A DNA stretch of 64,000 nt. It comes from Bacteroidia bacterium. GTDB lineage: Bacteria > Bacteroidota > Bacteroidia > B-17B0 > Aurantibacillaceae. This document shows positions 14,270-58,197 of the stretch, one piece after another. Where the stretch lies: assembly GCA_016787445.1 (NCBI GenBank), contig JAEUTQ010000017.1, positions 1 to 64,000 of the forward strand, given 5' to 3'. The position numbers were made by a program, and so were the translations under genes. Below the pieces are notes generated by a model. The model saw nothing but the letters and a program-made list of their open reading frames with translations, searched no databases and was not told the origin of the DNA. Numbering within the stretch: position 1 is the first letter of the stretch; the number at the start of each line of letters is the position of its first letter.

Positions 14270-15589
14270 TTAATTCATGTATTTCTGTTTGACTTCACTG
14301 TAACTTGGGAAGTTGTTATGATGCCAGTTCATGATGACGGTTCCGTCTTTAATTAAAATTAAACCCGGATTACTACGAACCATGGTTTTTAAAACAATTG
14401 CATCTACACTCGCGAAATCATACAAGGCTTGATGCGCATGTTTGTAGGCATTGATTTCTTCGGCACTCGATGCTGTTAAGCCAATGATTTTCTTGTTTTC
14501 TTTCGTTGCTAAAGTATAGAAGTCGTTGATTTTTGCGTGTAAACTTTCATCTTCTTCCGTTTTCTTTAAATCATAACAAACCAATAAAAAGCTATAGTCT
14601 TTATTGTTTAACAACGAATCTGTAATAGGATTTCCATTCGCATCGTTAACGGTAAAGTCTGTAATTTTTGGTGGATTAACAGCTTCTTTGGTTAAAACGT
14701 TATCAGTCGCAACCCATTTCCATGTTAAGGTATCTTCCCAAGGATAATTTTTTAAATCAAATTCTTTTACCTCATGTGTTTTCAAATTCTCATATTTAAA
14801 GCGTGTTTCGTAAACAGGCGGTTGGTAATCGGCCCCGGGCTTCATATTTTCTTTAATGTTCATTCCGATGGCATAAGCACGGAAATCTAGAGGAGGTAAA
14901 TTACGGTACGCGTAAATCGGGAAGGCAAAAGAAGCTATGGCTCCAATGATAAAGATGGTTACTTGTAAGGAAGGGAAAGTTAAATCATTGATGTGCTCTT
15001 TACCCGCAAATAAAAGAGTAATTAAAATCATGAGCGCAATATCCTTCCAAAAGCTTTCCCACGGTTTTAATTTTAAGAAATCGCCAAAACAACCGCAGTG
15101 TGTTACTTTGTTGTAGCAAGCCGAGTAGAATGTCAAGAATGTGAAAAAGGCGATTTGTGCGAACAATAACCATAATGTTAAATCACGTTTGTAGCCAATC
15201 AAAAGCATTACACCTAATAACATTTCACTCACACAAATGATAATCGCTAATGGAAGAGCAATGTGCGCGAACCATTCAAACATACCTAAGCCTGTATCAG
15301 CTTTAAATACTACAAAGTATTCTTCTAATTTGTAAGAGAAACCAAGAGGGTCGTTGGCTTTTATAAACCCTGAAAAAATAAATAAACATCCTACTAAGAT
15401 GCGCGCGATGTGCGTTAACCAGGGCCATTTACTGATAATAGGAGTACCATTCACCAATAAAACTAAAATGCCTAAAATAATTGCCAAGGTTGTTTTGCTA
15501 AAACAAGGCGGACAAATAAAATAAAATAAGGCAGCCAGGCCTATCGACCAAATGGCGCGAAATAATTTAGAGGATAAAAAGTTTTTCAT
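14270..15589 (-). CDS. DoxX-like membrane protein (BT_3928 type) with C-terminal thioredoxin-like region
   Basis: A 439-residue protein. The N-terminal half has about seven hydrophobic segments with DoxX/MauE-like features: RILVGCLFIFSGFIKANDPLGF and a cysteine-bearing stretch HCGCFGDFLKL at about 165-175. The C-terminal part is soluble (about 240-439) and looks like a redoxin fold without an active CxxC (FLLVCYDLKKTEE). The family sits next to DUF1599 genes in Bacteroidota, as here. A role in envelope redox or sulfur chemistry is plausible from the MauE resemblance, but it is unproven. Confidence 0.75.
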   Translation of the reverse strand: MKNFLSSKLFRAIWSIGLAALFYFICPPCFSKTTLAIILGILVLLVNGTPIISKWPWLTHIARILVGCLFIFSGFIKANDPLGFSYKLEEYFVVFKADTGLGMFEWFAHIALPLAIIICVSEMLLGVMLLIGYKRDLTLWLLFAQIAFFTFLTFYSACYNKVTHCGCFGDFLKLKPWESFWKDIALMILITLLFAGKEHINDLTFPSLQVTIFIIGAIASFAFPIYAYRNLPPLDFRAYAIGMNIKENMKPGADYQPPVYETRFKYENLKTHEVKEFDLKNYPWEDTLTWKWVATDNVLTKEAVNPPKITDFTVNDANGNPITDSLLNNKDYSFLLVCYDLKKTEEDESLHAKINDFYTLATKENKKIIGLTASSAEEINAYKHAHQALYDFASVDAIVLKTMVRSNPGLILIKDGTVIMNWHHNNFPSYSEVKQKYMN

Positions 15590-15678: not shown

Positions 15679-16215
15679 TTAATTGTCGAGTTTAATCAAA
15701 GCAAACACCGAATAATTTAACATATCCATATAATTTGCATCAACTCCTTCGGAAATAATGGTTTTCCCTTTGTTATCCTCTATTTGTTTAACACGGAAAA
15801 TTTTCATCAAAATCAGATCGGTTAAAGAGCTGATTCGCATATCGCGCCAAGCCTCACCGTAATCGTGATTTTTATCTTCCATTAATTTCTTGGTTTGCGC
15901 TACATATTTATCATATAGCTTTTCCACTTCATCGTAAGGTAAATCTACCCGCGAATCATTTTCAAGTTCCAACTGAATTAAAGAAATAACACAATAATTA
16001 ATGATGCCAATGTATTCGCCTTTAATATCATCACCCACTTTTTGGGTGCCTTTATTCTCGATGCTTTTAATGCGTTGCGCTTTAATAAATATCTGATCGG
16101 TTAACGAAGTTGGTCTTAAATTGCGCCAAGCGGTGCCATAATCTTTCATTTTCTTTAAAAAGATATCTTTGCATAGCTTTATGGCCTTGTCATATTGTGT
16201 TCCTGTAGTTTGCAT
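15679..16215 (-). CDS. DUF1599 protein
   Basis: The 178-residue protein contains two copies of one motif, MKDYGTAWRNLRPTSLTDQI at about 23-42 and DYGEAWRDMRISSLTDLI at about 123-140. Each is followed by a basic helix and an INYCVISLIQL / LNYSVFALIKL segment, so it is an internal duplication. This matches the DUF1599 family, whose biochemical role is unknown. The frame extends upstream to 16257, but the ATG at 16215 matches family starts. That ATG abuts the divergent folP ATG (CATATG). Downstream lies the DoxX-like gene, its usual neighbour in Bacteroidota. Confidence 0.85.
   Translation of the reverse strand: MQTTGTQYDKAIKLCKDIFLKKMKDYGTAWRNLRPTSLTDQIFIKAQRIKSIENKGTQKVGDDIKGEYIGIINYCVISLIQLELENDSRVDLPYDEVEKLYDKYVAQTKKLMEDKNHDYGEAWRDMRISSLTDLILMKIFRVKQIEDNKGKTIISEGVDANYMDMLNYSVFALIKLDN
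16164..16171 (+). promoter_or_regulatory. possible -7 box TATCTTTG for folP
   Basis: A full TAnnTTTG match inside the 5' part of the opposite-strand DUF1599 gene, 44 nt before the folP ATG. Because the two start codons touch, any folP promoter must lie there. No clear -33 TTG. Confidence 0.3.
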
Positions 16216-17073
16216 ATGAGCTCTAAAATTAAAGAAAATAACCCAATTGTATACCAAATAAATGGTAAAAGCCTGAGTTTTGAAAAGCCTATGGTAATGG
16301 CAATTATTAACTTAACGCCTGATAGCTTTTACGATGGCGGTAAGTATGGCGAAATAAATGATGTTTTAAGGGACGCGGAGGAAAAGGTAAAGCAGGGTGC
16401 CCTGATTTTAGATATTGGCGCGGCATCTTCTCGTTCCGGATCCAAAGAAATTAGTGAAGACGAAGAGTGGAAGCGTTTGCAGCAACCCTTACTGGAATTA
16501 CGTAAAAAATTTAATGAGATTTTTATTTCGGTGGATACTTACCGGGCAGAAATTGCACGGCGTGCCGCTGAATGTGGTGCTGATATTATTAATGATATTT
16601 CAGGCGGCAACATGGATGCTTCTATGTTTGACACAATTTCAAAACTGGAAGTTGCTTATGTGATGATGCATATGTTGGGCACCCCTCAAACTATGCAACA
16701 AAATCCTGAATACGGAGATGTAGTATACGAAGTGAAATCTGAATTTGAAAAGAAAGTAGCGCAACTTCAGGAGAAGAATTTTTCAAAATTGATTATCGAT
16801 CCGGGATTTGGTTTTGGTAAAACCACCGAGCATAATTATCAGCTTTTGAAACAACTTTCGCAATTTGTGGAACTGGGTTTTCCGGTTTTGGCCGGTTTAT
16901 CCAGAAAAAGTATGATTAATAAAGTTATTGGCAGCAGTCCGGTTACAGCTTTAAACGGTACAACTGTATTAAATACAATAGCACTTTTAAATGGTGCAAA
17001 AATCTTGAGAGTTCATGATGTGAACGAAGCCATCCAGGCAATAAAATTATTAGAGGTTTATACAAAAGCTTAA
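16216..17073 (+). CDS. folP: dihydropteroate synthase
   Basis: DHPS joins p-aminobenzoate to 6-hydroxymethyl-dihydropterin pyrophosphate in folate synthesis and is the sulfonamide target. The 285-residue TIM barrel shows MAIINLTPDSFYDGG at about 25-39, DIGAASSRSGS at about 66-76 (the PABA loop; family consensus is D-I-G-x-x-S-T-R-P), SVDTYRAEIA at about 100, DISGG, DPGFGFGKT at about 197 and GLSRKSMI near 230. The ATG at 16216 is preferred to the TTG at 16195 because the earlier codon is inside the divergent gene and family starts match. Loop 2 has SRSGS, as in many Bacteroidota. Confidence 0.95.
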   Translation: MSSKIKENNPIVYQINGKSLSFEKPMVMAIINLTPDSFYDGGKYGEINDVLRDAEEKVKQGALILDIGAASSRSGSKEISEDEEWKRLQQPLLELRKKFNEIFISVDTYRAEIARRAAECGADIINDISGGNMDASMFDTISKLEVAYVMMHMLGTPQTMQQNPEYGDVVYEVKSEFEKKVAQLQEKNFSKLIIDPGFGFGKTTEHNYQLLKQLSQFVELGFPVLAGLSRKSMINKVIGSSPVTALNGTTVLNTIALLNGAKILRVHDVNEAIQAIKLLEVYTKA

Positions 17074-54820: not shown

Positions 54821-55039
54821 TTATTCTTTAACGGTGCATACAACAGTGGTGTCTTTACTGTTTTTAGCGCAAGCATTTTCCTTATTATTTTTTGTGGAAT
54901 ACACTAAAACGTGAGATTTCTGTTTCGTATATGGATGATCGCACTCACAGGCGTAAGGTTTTAAACACGAATGCATAAAAATCGCTACCAGCGATAAAAC
55001 AAAAATTGTTTTGAGTTTATTTAAGGTTACAAACTTCAT
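54821..55039 (-). CDS. small cysteine-rich lipoprotein, paralog 3
   Basis: The 72-residue protein has a lipoprotein signal (LSLVAIFMHSC, Cys about 25). The mature part follows the pattern C-x5-C-x-C (CLKPYACEC), then 23 residues, C, 10 residues, and C-TVKE at the end. This pattern is shared with the two upstream genes. The ATG at 55039 overlaps the end of the preceding gene by 23 nt. No known family; an envelope role with metal or disulfide cysteines is an inference. Confidence 0.7.
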   Translation of the reverse strand: MKFVTLNKLKTIFVLSLVAIFMHSCLKPYACECDHPYTKQKSHVLVYSTKNNKENACAKNSKDTTVVCTVKE

Positions 55040-55217
55040 TGCTGTCGGCTAAATTAGTACACGCTTTTTTTGAATCTTTTTTATTGCCATTTATATAAAA
55101 TTTTTCAGGCATGGTATCTGTTACACCGGCTGTGTTTTCATAGCATTCGCACAAACGCGATTTCACACAGGCGCCTAACAGAAGAACAGAAACAAGTATC
55201 AGGATAATTTTTTTCAT
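55017..55217 (-). CDS. small cysteine-rich lipoprotein, paralog 2
   Basis: The 66-residue protein has the clearest lipobox (VSVLLLGAC, Cys at 17). The pattern is CVKSRLCEC, 27 residues, C, 9 residues, C-NLK. The frame can extend upstream to 55355, but that lies inside the preceding gene; the signal peptide fixes the ATG at 55217, 1 nt after the stop of paralog 1. It is the middle gene of the three-gene operon. Confidence 0.75.
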   Translation of the reverse strand: MKKIILILVSVLLLGACVKSRLCECYENTAGVTDTMPEKFYINGNKKDSKKACTNLADSNEVCNLK

Positions 55218-55218
55218 T

Positions 55219-55428
55219 TTATTGAACGATACAGCTAACGTTTGAACCGGGTGTATAGGTGTTTTGCAAGGCCTGACAGTAAGTGTTAGCCTCACTTCTC
55301 TTAACACGGGTGTAAGTTGTTTTGTAAATTTCTTTACCATCTTGCGAACAAACACAACTTCTGTCTTTTCGGCAAGAACAGAATAAGCTGATTAACGCAA
55401 CTCCTGTTAGTATGGTTTTTTTATTCAT
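55219..55428 (-). CDS. small cysteine-rich lipoprotein, paralog 1
   Basis: The 69-residue protein has a lipoprotein signal (VALISLFCSC; Cys 19 the likely lipidated one). The pattern is CRKDRSCVC, 23 residues, C, 14 residues, C-IVQ. It is first in the operon, behind a consensus promoter (55447-55475) with an 18-nt leader. No family is recognised by eye. Confidence 0.75.
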   Translation of the reverse strand: MNKKTILTGVALISLFCSCRKDRSCVCSQDGKEIYKTTYTRVKRSEANTYCQALQNTYTPGSNVSCIVQ

Positions 55429-55446
55429 CGGAATTAACTGTTACTA

Positions 55447-55475
55447 CAAAAGTAATTTTTAAATTTATATTTCAA
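55447..55475 (-). promoter_or_regulatory. consensus promoter of the small lipoprotein operon
   Basis: On minus: TTTTG with TTG as complement of CAA 55473-55475, 18 nt spacer, TACTTTTG as complement of 55447-55454. A full TTG/TAnnTTTG match. Confidence 0.62.
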
Positions 55476-55481
55476 AATAAG

Positions 55482-55507: not shown

Positions 55508-56086
55508 ATGAACTATTTGGCGCATTCTCTTTTGTCGTTTAATGATGAGGAAATACTTATCGGCAATTTTATTGCGGATCATGTGCGCCTTAATCAATCG
55601 AAACATTTGCCGGAAAGAATTCAAAAGGGCATTACCATTCATCGAAAAATCGATATGTTTACCGATAGTCATCCCTTGTTCATTAAAAGTAAGCGGCATT
55701 TTTACGATGGATTTGAAAGGTACAGCGGCGTATTGATGGATATTTATTTCGATTACCTTTTGGCTAAAAATTTCCATCGCTTTTCAGATGTTACTTTACC
55801 TGAATATACCCAAAATCTTTACACTACTTTAAATAACAACCGAATTCACTTACCCGATTCTTCTCAACGGTTTTTAGATTATGTTCTTCAGAACAATACT
55901 TTTTTCGAATATTCTAAAATTGAAGGAATTGAACTGGTGCTCAAACATCTTTCCTACCGAATCAATCATGGTGTTTTTTTAAATGAATCACTTCCGTTGT
56001 TTATTGAAAATGAATCCAAAATCGAGCCCGACTTTTTTGAATTTATGAATGATTTAATTGAAGACGTAAAAAAGCAATCAGCCTAA
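55508..56086 (+). CDS. ACP phosphodiesterase-like (AcpH, DUF479) protein
   Basis: The 192-residue protein starts [10 protein letters not shown] and has GNFIADHVR at about 19-27, [16 protein letters not shown] at about 40-55, and [14 protein letters not shown] at about 81-94. This is the AcpH/DUF479 pattern, an HD-like metal fold that removes the phosphopantetheine arm from acyl carrier protein in E. coli. Length matches (E. coli 193). Activity in this lineage is inferred. The last 9 nt overlap the convergent LolD-type gene. Confidence 0.85.
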
Positions 56087-56731
56087 GAAGTTGCCGTCTT
56101 TCATTACTAATTTTCTATCGGCCATATCTGCCAATTCGTTATTATGCGTTACAATCACAAAAGTTTGATTGTATGTTTTTCTTAAATTAAAGAAAAGCTG
56201 ATGTAGTTCTTTAGCTGAATTACTGTCTAGATTTCCGGAGGGTTCATCGGCAAAAACAACTTTTGGCGAATTAATCAATGCACGCGCAACAGCTACGCGT
56301 TGTTGTTCGCCACCTGATAATTCAGATGGCTTATGATTTTTGCGCGCGCTTAATCCTAAATACTCGAGCAATTCTTCCGCTTTTTTTTCCGCTTCTTTTT
56401 TAGCGGTTTTAGCAATAAAAGCGGGCATGCAAATATTTTCGATGGCTGTAAATTCAGGTAACAAATGATGAAATTGAAAAACAAAACCAATGTGTTTATT
56501 TCTGAATGCAGCAAGCTTGCTGTCGTTTAAACTGTAAACATCAATGCCCCCAATATTTAATGTGCCTGAAGTTGGACGATCAAGAGTTCCTAAGATAGTA
56601 AGCAATGTTGTTTTACCTGCACCCGACGAACCTACAATGGAAACAACTTCACCTTCATTAATGTCAACATTCACACCTTTTAATATCTCCAGTTGTCCGT
56701 ATGTTTTATGTATGTCGCGTGCTTTTATCAT
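56078..56731 (-). CDS. LolD-like ABC transporter ATPase
   Basis: The 217-residue ATPase has [23 protein letters not shown] (Walker A at about 37-45), [15 protein letters not shown] (Q-loop), [19 protein letters not shown] (signature, about 135) and [13 protein letters not shown] (Walker B). This is the MacB/LolD class. LolD with LolC/E releases lipoproteins from the inner membrane; no permease is adjacent, and Bacteroidota have many such ATPases. The frame extends upstream to 56752, but the ATG at 56731, 2 nt after the symporter stop, fits family starts ([12 protein letters not shown]). Confidence 0.88.
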
Positions 56732-56733
56732 CT

Positions 56734-58197
56734 CTACAAAAGTAAGTAACAAAACAATGTAATCAATATAATTCCTAAAACATCCAGCACTATTCCTACT
56801 TTAAACATATCTTTTATTTCTATGCGTTTCGTTCCAAATACAATTGTATTGGCTGCGGTGGCAACAGGTAACATAAATCCTAAAGAGGCAGCAAAAGTGG
56901 CCGGAATCATTAGCATTAAGGGAGGTAAATCCAGATTTTTTTGTAATGCAATCATCACCGGTATGGCTAACTGAATACTGGCAATGTTAGAAGCAAATTC
57001 ACTGATTAACGTAACAATGCCGCATATTCCCAGAATAACTAAAACAGGATTAACACCTTTTAATACAGCCAAAGAACCGGCGAGCCATTCGCTTAATCCG
57101 GATACTTCAAATCCGTAGGCCAAAGCAAATCCACTGCCAAACATCAGAATGATATCGTAACGGATTTTTTTAGCGTCATTCCAGGTTAATAAGGCTTCAT
57201 TCTGACTTTTCTTAGAAGGAATTAAGAATAATAATAAGGCGGCAACGACAGCAACCAATGAATCATCAATAAATTTCGGAACTTGAAATAAATTAGCCCA
57301 TCCTTTATATTTAAATGTACCAAAATCTACATCCGCACGGGTAAACCATAAAACAGCGCAAGTAATGAAAATGATAAATACCCAGCGCTCTTCATAACTT
57401 GTTTTTCCGAGGTTGGTGTAATTAGTTTTAAAAAAACTCTTACTTAAATTTATTTCAAGTCCTTTCCTGAAATAATATTTCGACAGTACAAAGAAAGTAA
57501 CGATTAAGAACGTAAAGGATAGAGGAAAGCCGATTGAAGCCCACTTTAAAAAATTAAGTTGCGTATCTGCAGGATAAGCTTCTTTAAAGGCTTTAAAGAA
57601 ATACATATTCGGTGGAGTTCCAACCGGTGTTGCCAATCCGCCAATTGTTGTAGAGAAGGCAAGTCCTAATAATAATGCAGCAGCAAATTTATTTCTGTTT
57701 TTAGTTCCTTCAATAAATTGCTCGGTTTCCAATATCAATGCCAGAACTGCACTAAATAACATCATACAAGTAGCGGTATTGCTAATCCAATTACTGATAA
57801 GATATGAGCTTATCATGATACCAAATAAAATGTTCGTAGGCTTTGTGCCAACTACAGATAATATTTTAATGGCAATGCGTTTATGTAAATCCCATTTCTC
57901 TATGGCAAAAGCGAGCATAAATCCACCTAAGAATAAAAATATAATACTGTCGGTATATTGTTGAGCTACACTTTTTGCATCACCCAATCCGAAAACCGGA
58001 AGAAGTATCATTGGTAAGAGAGCAGTAACAGCTAAATCAACAGCTTCGGTAAACCACCAGGTGGCCATCCAAACTGCAATTCCTGCCATGAATGTTACTT
58101 TAGGGGAGCCGGGTTGTAAATCAAAAAACAGCCAAATAATAGAGGCAAGCATTGGCCCGGCTAATATTGGTATATATTTTTTGAAAAGATTTGGCAT
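56734..58197 (-). CDS. SLC13/DASS-family anion symporter
   Basis: The 487-residue polytopic protein has about 11-12 helices. Motifs of divalent anion:Na+ symporters are seen: [17 protein letters not shown] (SNT motif, about 135-150), [15 protein letters not shown] at about 180, and the second SNT-like [17 protein letters not shown] near 395. Relatives import succinate, citrate or sulfate with sodium. Substrate not known. It is the first gene of a two-gene unit with the LolD-type ATPase. Start ATG 58197, 5 nt from its box in the shared inverted repeat. Confidence 0.87.

Follow-up and report, generated by a model that had tools for sequence, protein, structure and literature searches.

Three small lipoproteins encoded side by side in the window, the whole stretch of 64,000 nucleotides of Bacteroidia bacterium DNA analysed here, belong to a large, undescribed, Bacteroidota-wide family, many genes of which adjoin a gene for a membrane protein combining a MauE domain with a thioredoxin-like domain. 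We put at roughly even the chance that the members of this family, the trio included, are periplasm-facing lipoproteins with two disulfide bonds, which this enzyme would oxidise or reshuffle.

The trio comprises gene A (55428–55219, 69 amino acids), gene B (55217–55017, 66 amino acids) and gene C (55039–54821, 72 amino acids), all on the minus strand and each running from ATG to TAA. A 1-nt gap separates A from B, and B overlaps C by 23 nt. Each sequence has a lipobox and a putative lipidated cysteine, which opens the motif CRKDRSCVC in protein A, CVKSRLCEC in protein B and CLKPYACEC in protein C, followed in every case by two further cysteines. The complete spacings are C19-x5-C25-x-C27-x23-C51-x14-C66-x3 in A, C17-x5-C23-x-C25-x27-C53-x9-C63-x3 in B and C25-x5-C31-x-C33-x23-C57-x10-C68-x4 in C, with spacers of 23–27 and then 9–14 residues between the later cysteines and 3–4 residues to the end. 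All three follow the order found throughout the family, C-x-C...C...C with the final cysteine 2–5 residues from the C terminus. Re-reading of the coordinates bore out the preliminary description of three minus-strand lipoprotein genes with these lengths, this gap and overlap, and a five-cysteine pattern. The gene B reference used in several alignments and for its AlphaFold2 model spans 55023–55220, and compared with the true coding sequence at 55017–55217 it has one extra 5′ codon and lacks the last lysine.

The promoter that had been described ahead of the operon is present in the Bacteroidota-type −33/−7 form, TTTG-N18-TACTTTTG, on the minus strand at 55476–55447, preceding gene A, and its core is conserved in those genomes of the genus that possess gene A. 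The pattern TTTG–18 nt–TACTTTTG has four matches across the whole window, counting both strands. A sigma-70 scan missed the gene A promoter because the scan seeks the consensus of E. coli, not that of Bacteroidota.

Single-member searches followed by a profile search recovered 12 family members on 9 contigs of the window genome (E 2.5e-8 or better). The family profile matches 45 of 60 relatives, with up to 19 copies per genome, most of the relatives compared being uncultured, and a pattern scan located 80 loci in named Bacteroidota records, including Fluviicola and Brumimicrobium. With one viral contig added, these form a set of 81 loci, 37 of which hold at least two members, nearly always on the same strand. 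The spread given by the phylum search, which scored 14 candidates per genome, is an underestimate. When a lipobox was made obligatory and the other cysteines were left free, the search collected 251 distinct members; lysine stands at position +3 after the lipidated cysteine in 245 of them, and the trio proteins read CRK, CVK and CLK. The family consensus is lipobox-C-K-K-D-Y-T-C-x-C ... T-K-x-x-A-x-x-x-C ... C-x-L-K. Profiles confined to the mature portion of a single gene's product still recover the wider family, and the match is therefore not merely one of signal peptides. Literature searches, which covered few subscription journals, found nothing relevant on the family or its link to MauE, in agreement with the earlier statement that no function had been described. 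Sister small lipoproteins of the form CKKCxxC...CGxK...C, with four cysteines after the lipidated one, were observed at loci L057:968–1412, L127:8628–8852, L173:9363–9819 and L191:23–241, and a variant CKKxYECCY...C...KCE lies within main-family gene arrays at L156:10368–11411 and L187:8246–8903.

In the family tree, built on a short alignment that leaves its deep forks unresolved, each of the A, B and C positions forms a genus-wide clade of its own, with support of 100/96 to 100/100, and the three are not joined as sisters. Gene A groups with L040:1782–1970 and L043:1504–1692 (support 99/96), its nearest relatives in other genera, both of which lie in arrays ending in a MauE–thioredoxin gene. 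Judged by this tree, the trio is a set of three old paralogues and not a fresh tandem duplication. The tandem duplication proposed for these genes in the preliminary description thus falls away, although the family does form tandem arrays elsewhere.

Clustering of the genes within 5 kb of family members at the 81 loci identified a MauE/thioredoxin-type gene at 44 of them; the next most recurrent neighbours reached at most 7 loci (MiaE, 7; an ABC ATPase, 7), and methylamine dehydrogenase genes were not among the recurrent neighbours. This protein is the informative neighbour, and it adjoins other family members, not the trio. Its gene usually closes the array and nearly always runs in the same direction as the lipoprotein genes, 0–160 nt downstream of one of them. 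In the protein, a MauE domain (PF07291, E 3.8e-21) bearing the motif CGCFG is joined to a C-terminal thioredoxin-like domain. The latter contains CPHC; its CxxC and a proline are invariant, and in profile searches it weakly matches chains of glutaredoxin, thioredoxin and DsbA. Some loci encode a shorter form with the membrane part and CxxC only. From its domain make-up, the membrane protein looks made to handle disulfide bonds.

These loci had been found through the lipoproteins, and the test was therefore reversed to start from the enzyme. A family gene lies immediately upstream of the enzyme gene in 16 of 26 evaluable loci of a class-wide sample and in 16 of 18 from further relatives, that is, for 32 of 44 evaluable enzyme copies, counts from which seven loci are omitted because the contig stops a short way upstream of the enzyme gene. 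At a generous background of 1%, the probability of this arising by chance is <1e-25, for loci that are related by descent. Of the 35 genomes counted as having the family at E below 1e-6, 31 contain the enzyme, as against 1 of the 25 that lack the family; within the taxonomic family the figures are 30 of 32 and 0 of 5. Neither comparison is corrected for kinship, and the co-occurrence p-values take no account of common descent. In the window genome the enzyme is encoded once, on contig 44, 55 nt downstream of the gene for a 79-residue family member, and every same-genus genome searched contains the enzyme. The other 11 of the 12 family copies in the window genome do not adjoin its gene, and the trio is not directly upstream of a MauE–thioredoxin gene. 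Four genomes (G021, G033, G038 and G043) contain the family, yet no enzyme could be recognised in them. In one genus (g2; L209–L214, L216 and L217), the enzyme has no adjacent lipoprotein gene and the family is found elsewhere in the genome, with one of these contigs ending too soon for adjacency to be judged.

The window also encodes a second MauE-domain protein (14270–15589, minus strand; 439 amino acids; CGCFG; PF07291, E 1.3e-20), with no obvious C-terminal CxxC. Its gene neighbours a 192-residue gene (15679–16257, minus strand) and another gene (16195–17073, plus strand) that is presumably dihydropteroate-synthase-like.

Beyond the window genome, the trio locus is carried by six same-genus genomes in which acpH was identified; genes B and C occur in all six and gene A in five, G001 having no gene A between B and acpH. 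The gene order in the genus is DUF3108 gene, trio, acpH and ABC ATPase gene. Among trio orthologues, synonymous differences are near saturation and non-synonymous differences amount to about 0.13–0.43 per site, a range that leaves out the nearly identical pair G000–G007. The trio is under purifying selection. Its members are real genes and not chance frames, because orthologues stand at the same place, non-synonymous differences are far below synonymous ones, and mature-part profiles recover the family. Five-cysteine homologues and conserved frames, on which the preliminary description had staked its reading, were both found. The fast divergence that it had claimed is seen between positions, at approximately 20–25% identity, and not within a position, where the proteins are conserved: gene C varies least among the three, at a pace close to that of acpH.

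Conservation of the neighbourhood allows another reading, in which the trio would have parted from the redox system and taken on a genus-specific role with the DUF3108 protein, AcpH and the LolD-like ATPase, its disulfides being made by a general Dsb-type pathway. The arrangement is kept in same-genus genomes and absent from the other genomes checked, and the trio stands apart from the enzyme gene. We regard this reading as unlikely, although with some claim to attention: the DUF3108 gene and acpH flank the trio on the opposite strand and therefore share no operon with it, and gene A still clusters in the tree with lipoproteins linked to the enzyme. The co-occurrence with DUF3108 and AcpH suggested earlier holds inside the genus and fails in the other genomes checked, where no DUF3108 match was found within 1.5 kb of acpH outside the genus. 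The ABC ATPase, which resembles LolD of lipoprotein release, is encoded just past acpH (56078–56752, minus strand), and neighbourhood comparison shows that genomes of the genus retain it next to acpH and the trio; this placement may be coincidence.

An envelope lipoprotein family with disulfides as a leading option, as had been suggested, is upheld. Of the 251 members, 245 have four cysteines, neither more nor fewer, in addition to the lipidated one, and the exceptions are four members with two, one with five and one with six; none has one or three. The search profile was built from five-cysteine members and is therefore biased towards them, so that these figures may miss some genuine variants. 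The same picture holds for 171 members that were not picked by the CKKDYTC pattern. AlphaFold2 models of proteins C and B share a β-β-α-β topology with core pLDDT values of approximately 80–88 and pTM values of 0.46–0.53, a moderate level of confidence. In the models, the first strand carries both C-x-C cysteines; of the other two, one lies on the helix and the other on the final strand. A profile search against the PDB gave no solved-structure match, and Foldseek searches with the two models against the PDB and BFVD gave nothing at E 0.001. Phage Dmd (TM 0.5), the best-looking small Foldseek match, was rejected, its E value of 2.3 being at chance level.

Four cysteines kept almost invariably are as expected of structural disulfides, whereas a redox carrier typically has a single pair of the CxxC type, and the models of C and B have no thioredoxin-like fold. 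Both observations speak against the lipoproteins being thiol–disulfide carriers between the inner-membrane MauE–thioredoxin enzyme and outer-membrane clients. The tight coupling of lipoprotein and enzyme genes, the C-x-C near the membrane anchor and the several different lipoproteins for each enzyme gene would all suit such carriers, a role that we judge rather improbable.

A metal site is a further use to which the four cysteines could be put: they would bind zinc, copper or an iron–sulfur centre, and the MauE–thioredoxin enzyme would keep them reduced for loading. Thioredoxin-like proteins keep cysteines reduced in the maturation of cytochrome c and of CuA; the C-x-C motif is compatible with such a site, and a neighbouring thiol enzyme fits reduction as well as oxidation. 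The four two-cysteine members, however, retain the second and fourth cysteines and are without the third and fifth, so that one putative pair is kept and the other lost. Since the same two cysteines are lost, two disulfides are favoured over a metal site, and a pairing of C2 with C4 and C3 with C5 fits the sequences. All four of these variants belong to one locus, an array of Brumimicrobium glaciale (L129:8687–10721), and may reflect one event because they come from one genome. Histidine and methionine make up 0.7% and 0.6% of the mature part and are thus too rare to leave other obvious metal ligands, and no other neighbour gene, metal-handling or not, occurs at more than 7 loci. Metal binding accordingly has a slim chance of being the answer.

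None of the known families compared accounts for these proteins. Against Pfam, the trio proteins gave nothing over the gathering threshold and 68 members gave scattered weak matches only; across Pfam, NCBIfam and PHROG, searched with single proteins and with the 68 members, the only model over its cut-off was a generic lipoprotein signal-peptide model, for one member. NF050142, the PG1828 family lipoprotein, likewise comprises small Bacteroidota lipoproteins, and 10 of the 68 members match it below cut-off; those examined score 23.5–25.7 bits versus a cut-off of 50, with matches running from residue 1 through the signal peptide into part of the mature protein. Membership of the PG1828 family was rejected, these scores being below the curated 50 bits and the trio proteins giving no match to NF050142. 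Phage superinfection-exclusion lipoproteins of the Cor/Llp kind resemble the family in size and lipoprotein signal, and 12 of the 68 members weakly match phrog_1119 (Cor; best E 1.3e-4), but this identity is very improbable, as the two matches examined span residues 1–51 and 1–39 (signal peptide and mature start) with the C-terminal cysteines outside, one member searched by tblastn against 50,697 phage records had no match, 2.9 million viral contigs held one match, and chromosomal positions are conserved. Cor membership was rejected for want of both homology across the mature protein and presence in phages. The viral-contig match is L192:8001–8216, on a putatively viral IMG/VR contig of 62.6 kb.

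If the family consists of two-disulfide lipoproteins handled by the MauE–thioredoxin enzyme, the mature part of approximately 45–55 residues would fold as β-β-α-β, with two disulfides, from the second cysteine to the fourth and from the third to the fifth, beside the lipid-anchored first cysteine. The lipoproteins would sit in the envelope, facing the periplasm. In Bacteroidota, the signal for surface-exposed lipoproteins (LES) is C-X-K-(D/E)2-X, or an acidic stretch at +2 to +6 (PMC5080379). The trio, with CRKDRS, CVKSRL and CLKPYA, is without it, and the net charge of the family at +2 to +6 is mostly +1 to +2. The acidic surface-export signal being absent, the lipoproteins therefore probably face the periplasm. 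There, the MauE domain with its CGC motif and the periplasmic thioredoxin-like domain with its CPHC would oxidise their cysteines or correct the pairing, and the single enzyme on another contig would serve all copies in the window genome. We infer that it would serve the trio as well, because the three proteins are family members, the closest relatives of A are enzyme-linked, and the enzyme occurs in all same-genus genomes searched. An enzyme–client relation is the simplest reading for these lipoproteins; instead of oxidising its clients, the enzyme could reduce them, and the adjacency could mean that the lipoproteins serve the enzyme or that both take part in a shared third process. A role for the arrays of diverged copies as putative binding modules with different targets would fit.

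The proposed pairing of enzyme and client has precedents. VKOR–thioredoxin fusions join a membrane oxidase to a thioredoxin-like donor, and in the methylamine dehydrogenase cluster, MauE and MauD are needed for the disulfide-rich small subunit. The MauE/MauD system shares with the present one a MauE domain (PF07291), a thioredoxin-like domain and a nearby-encoded, cysteine-rich exported client; it differs in that here MauE and the thioredoxin-like part form one protein and the proposed clients are arrays of tiny lipoproteins. DsbA with DsbB or VKOR is presented in PMC11208910 as a disulfide-forming pair of membrane oxidase and thioredoxin-like donor. The present protein resembles DsbA/DsbB and the VKOR–thioredoxin fusions in combining a putative membrane oxidase with a thioredoxin-like donor, as pair or fusion, but its membrane domain is MauE, and its genetic tie is to one small-protein family and not general.

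Unnamed small lipoproteins are common in Bacteroidota genomes and mostly left as hypothetical. A strict cysteine rule together with a recurrent enzyme partner makes this family into a testable system, with a first testable role. The broadest form of the proposal, to which we give somewhat less than an even chance, is that of a phylum-wide, undescribed module in which arrays of tiny two-disulfide lipoproteins have their own MauE–thioredoxin enzyme, as a dedicated folding line separate from general Dsb, the trio being members that lie away from the enzyme gene. If true, this would provide a client for the MauE–thioredoxin fusion and would bear on disulfide handling in Bacteroidota, a subject on which little literature was found.
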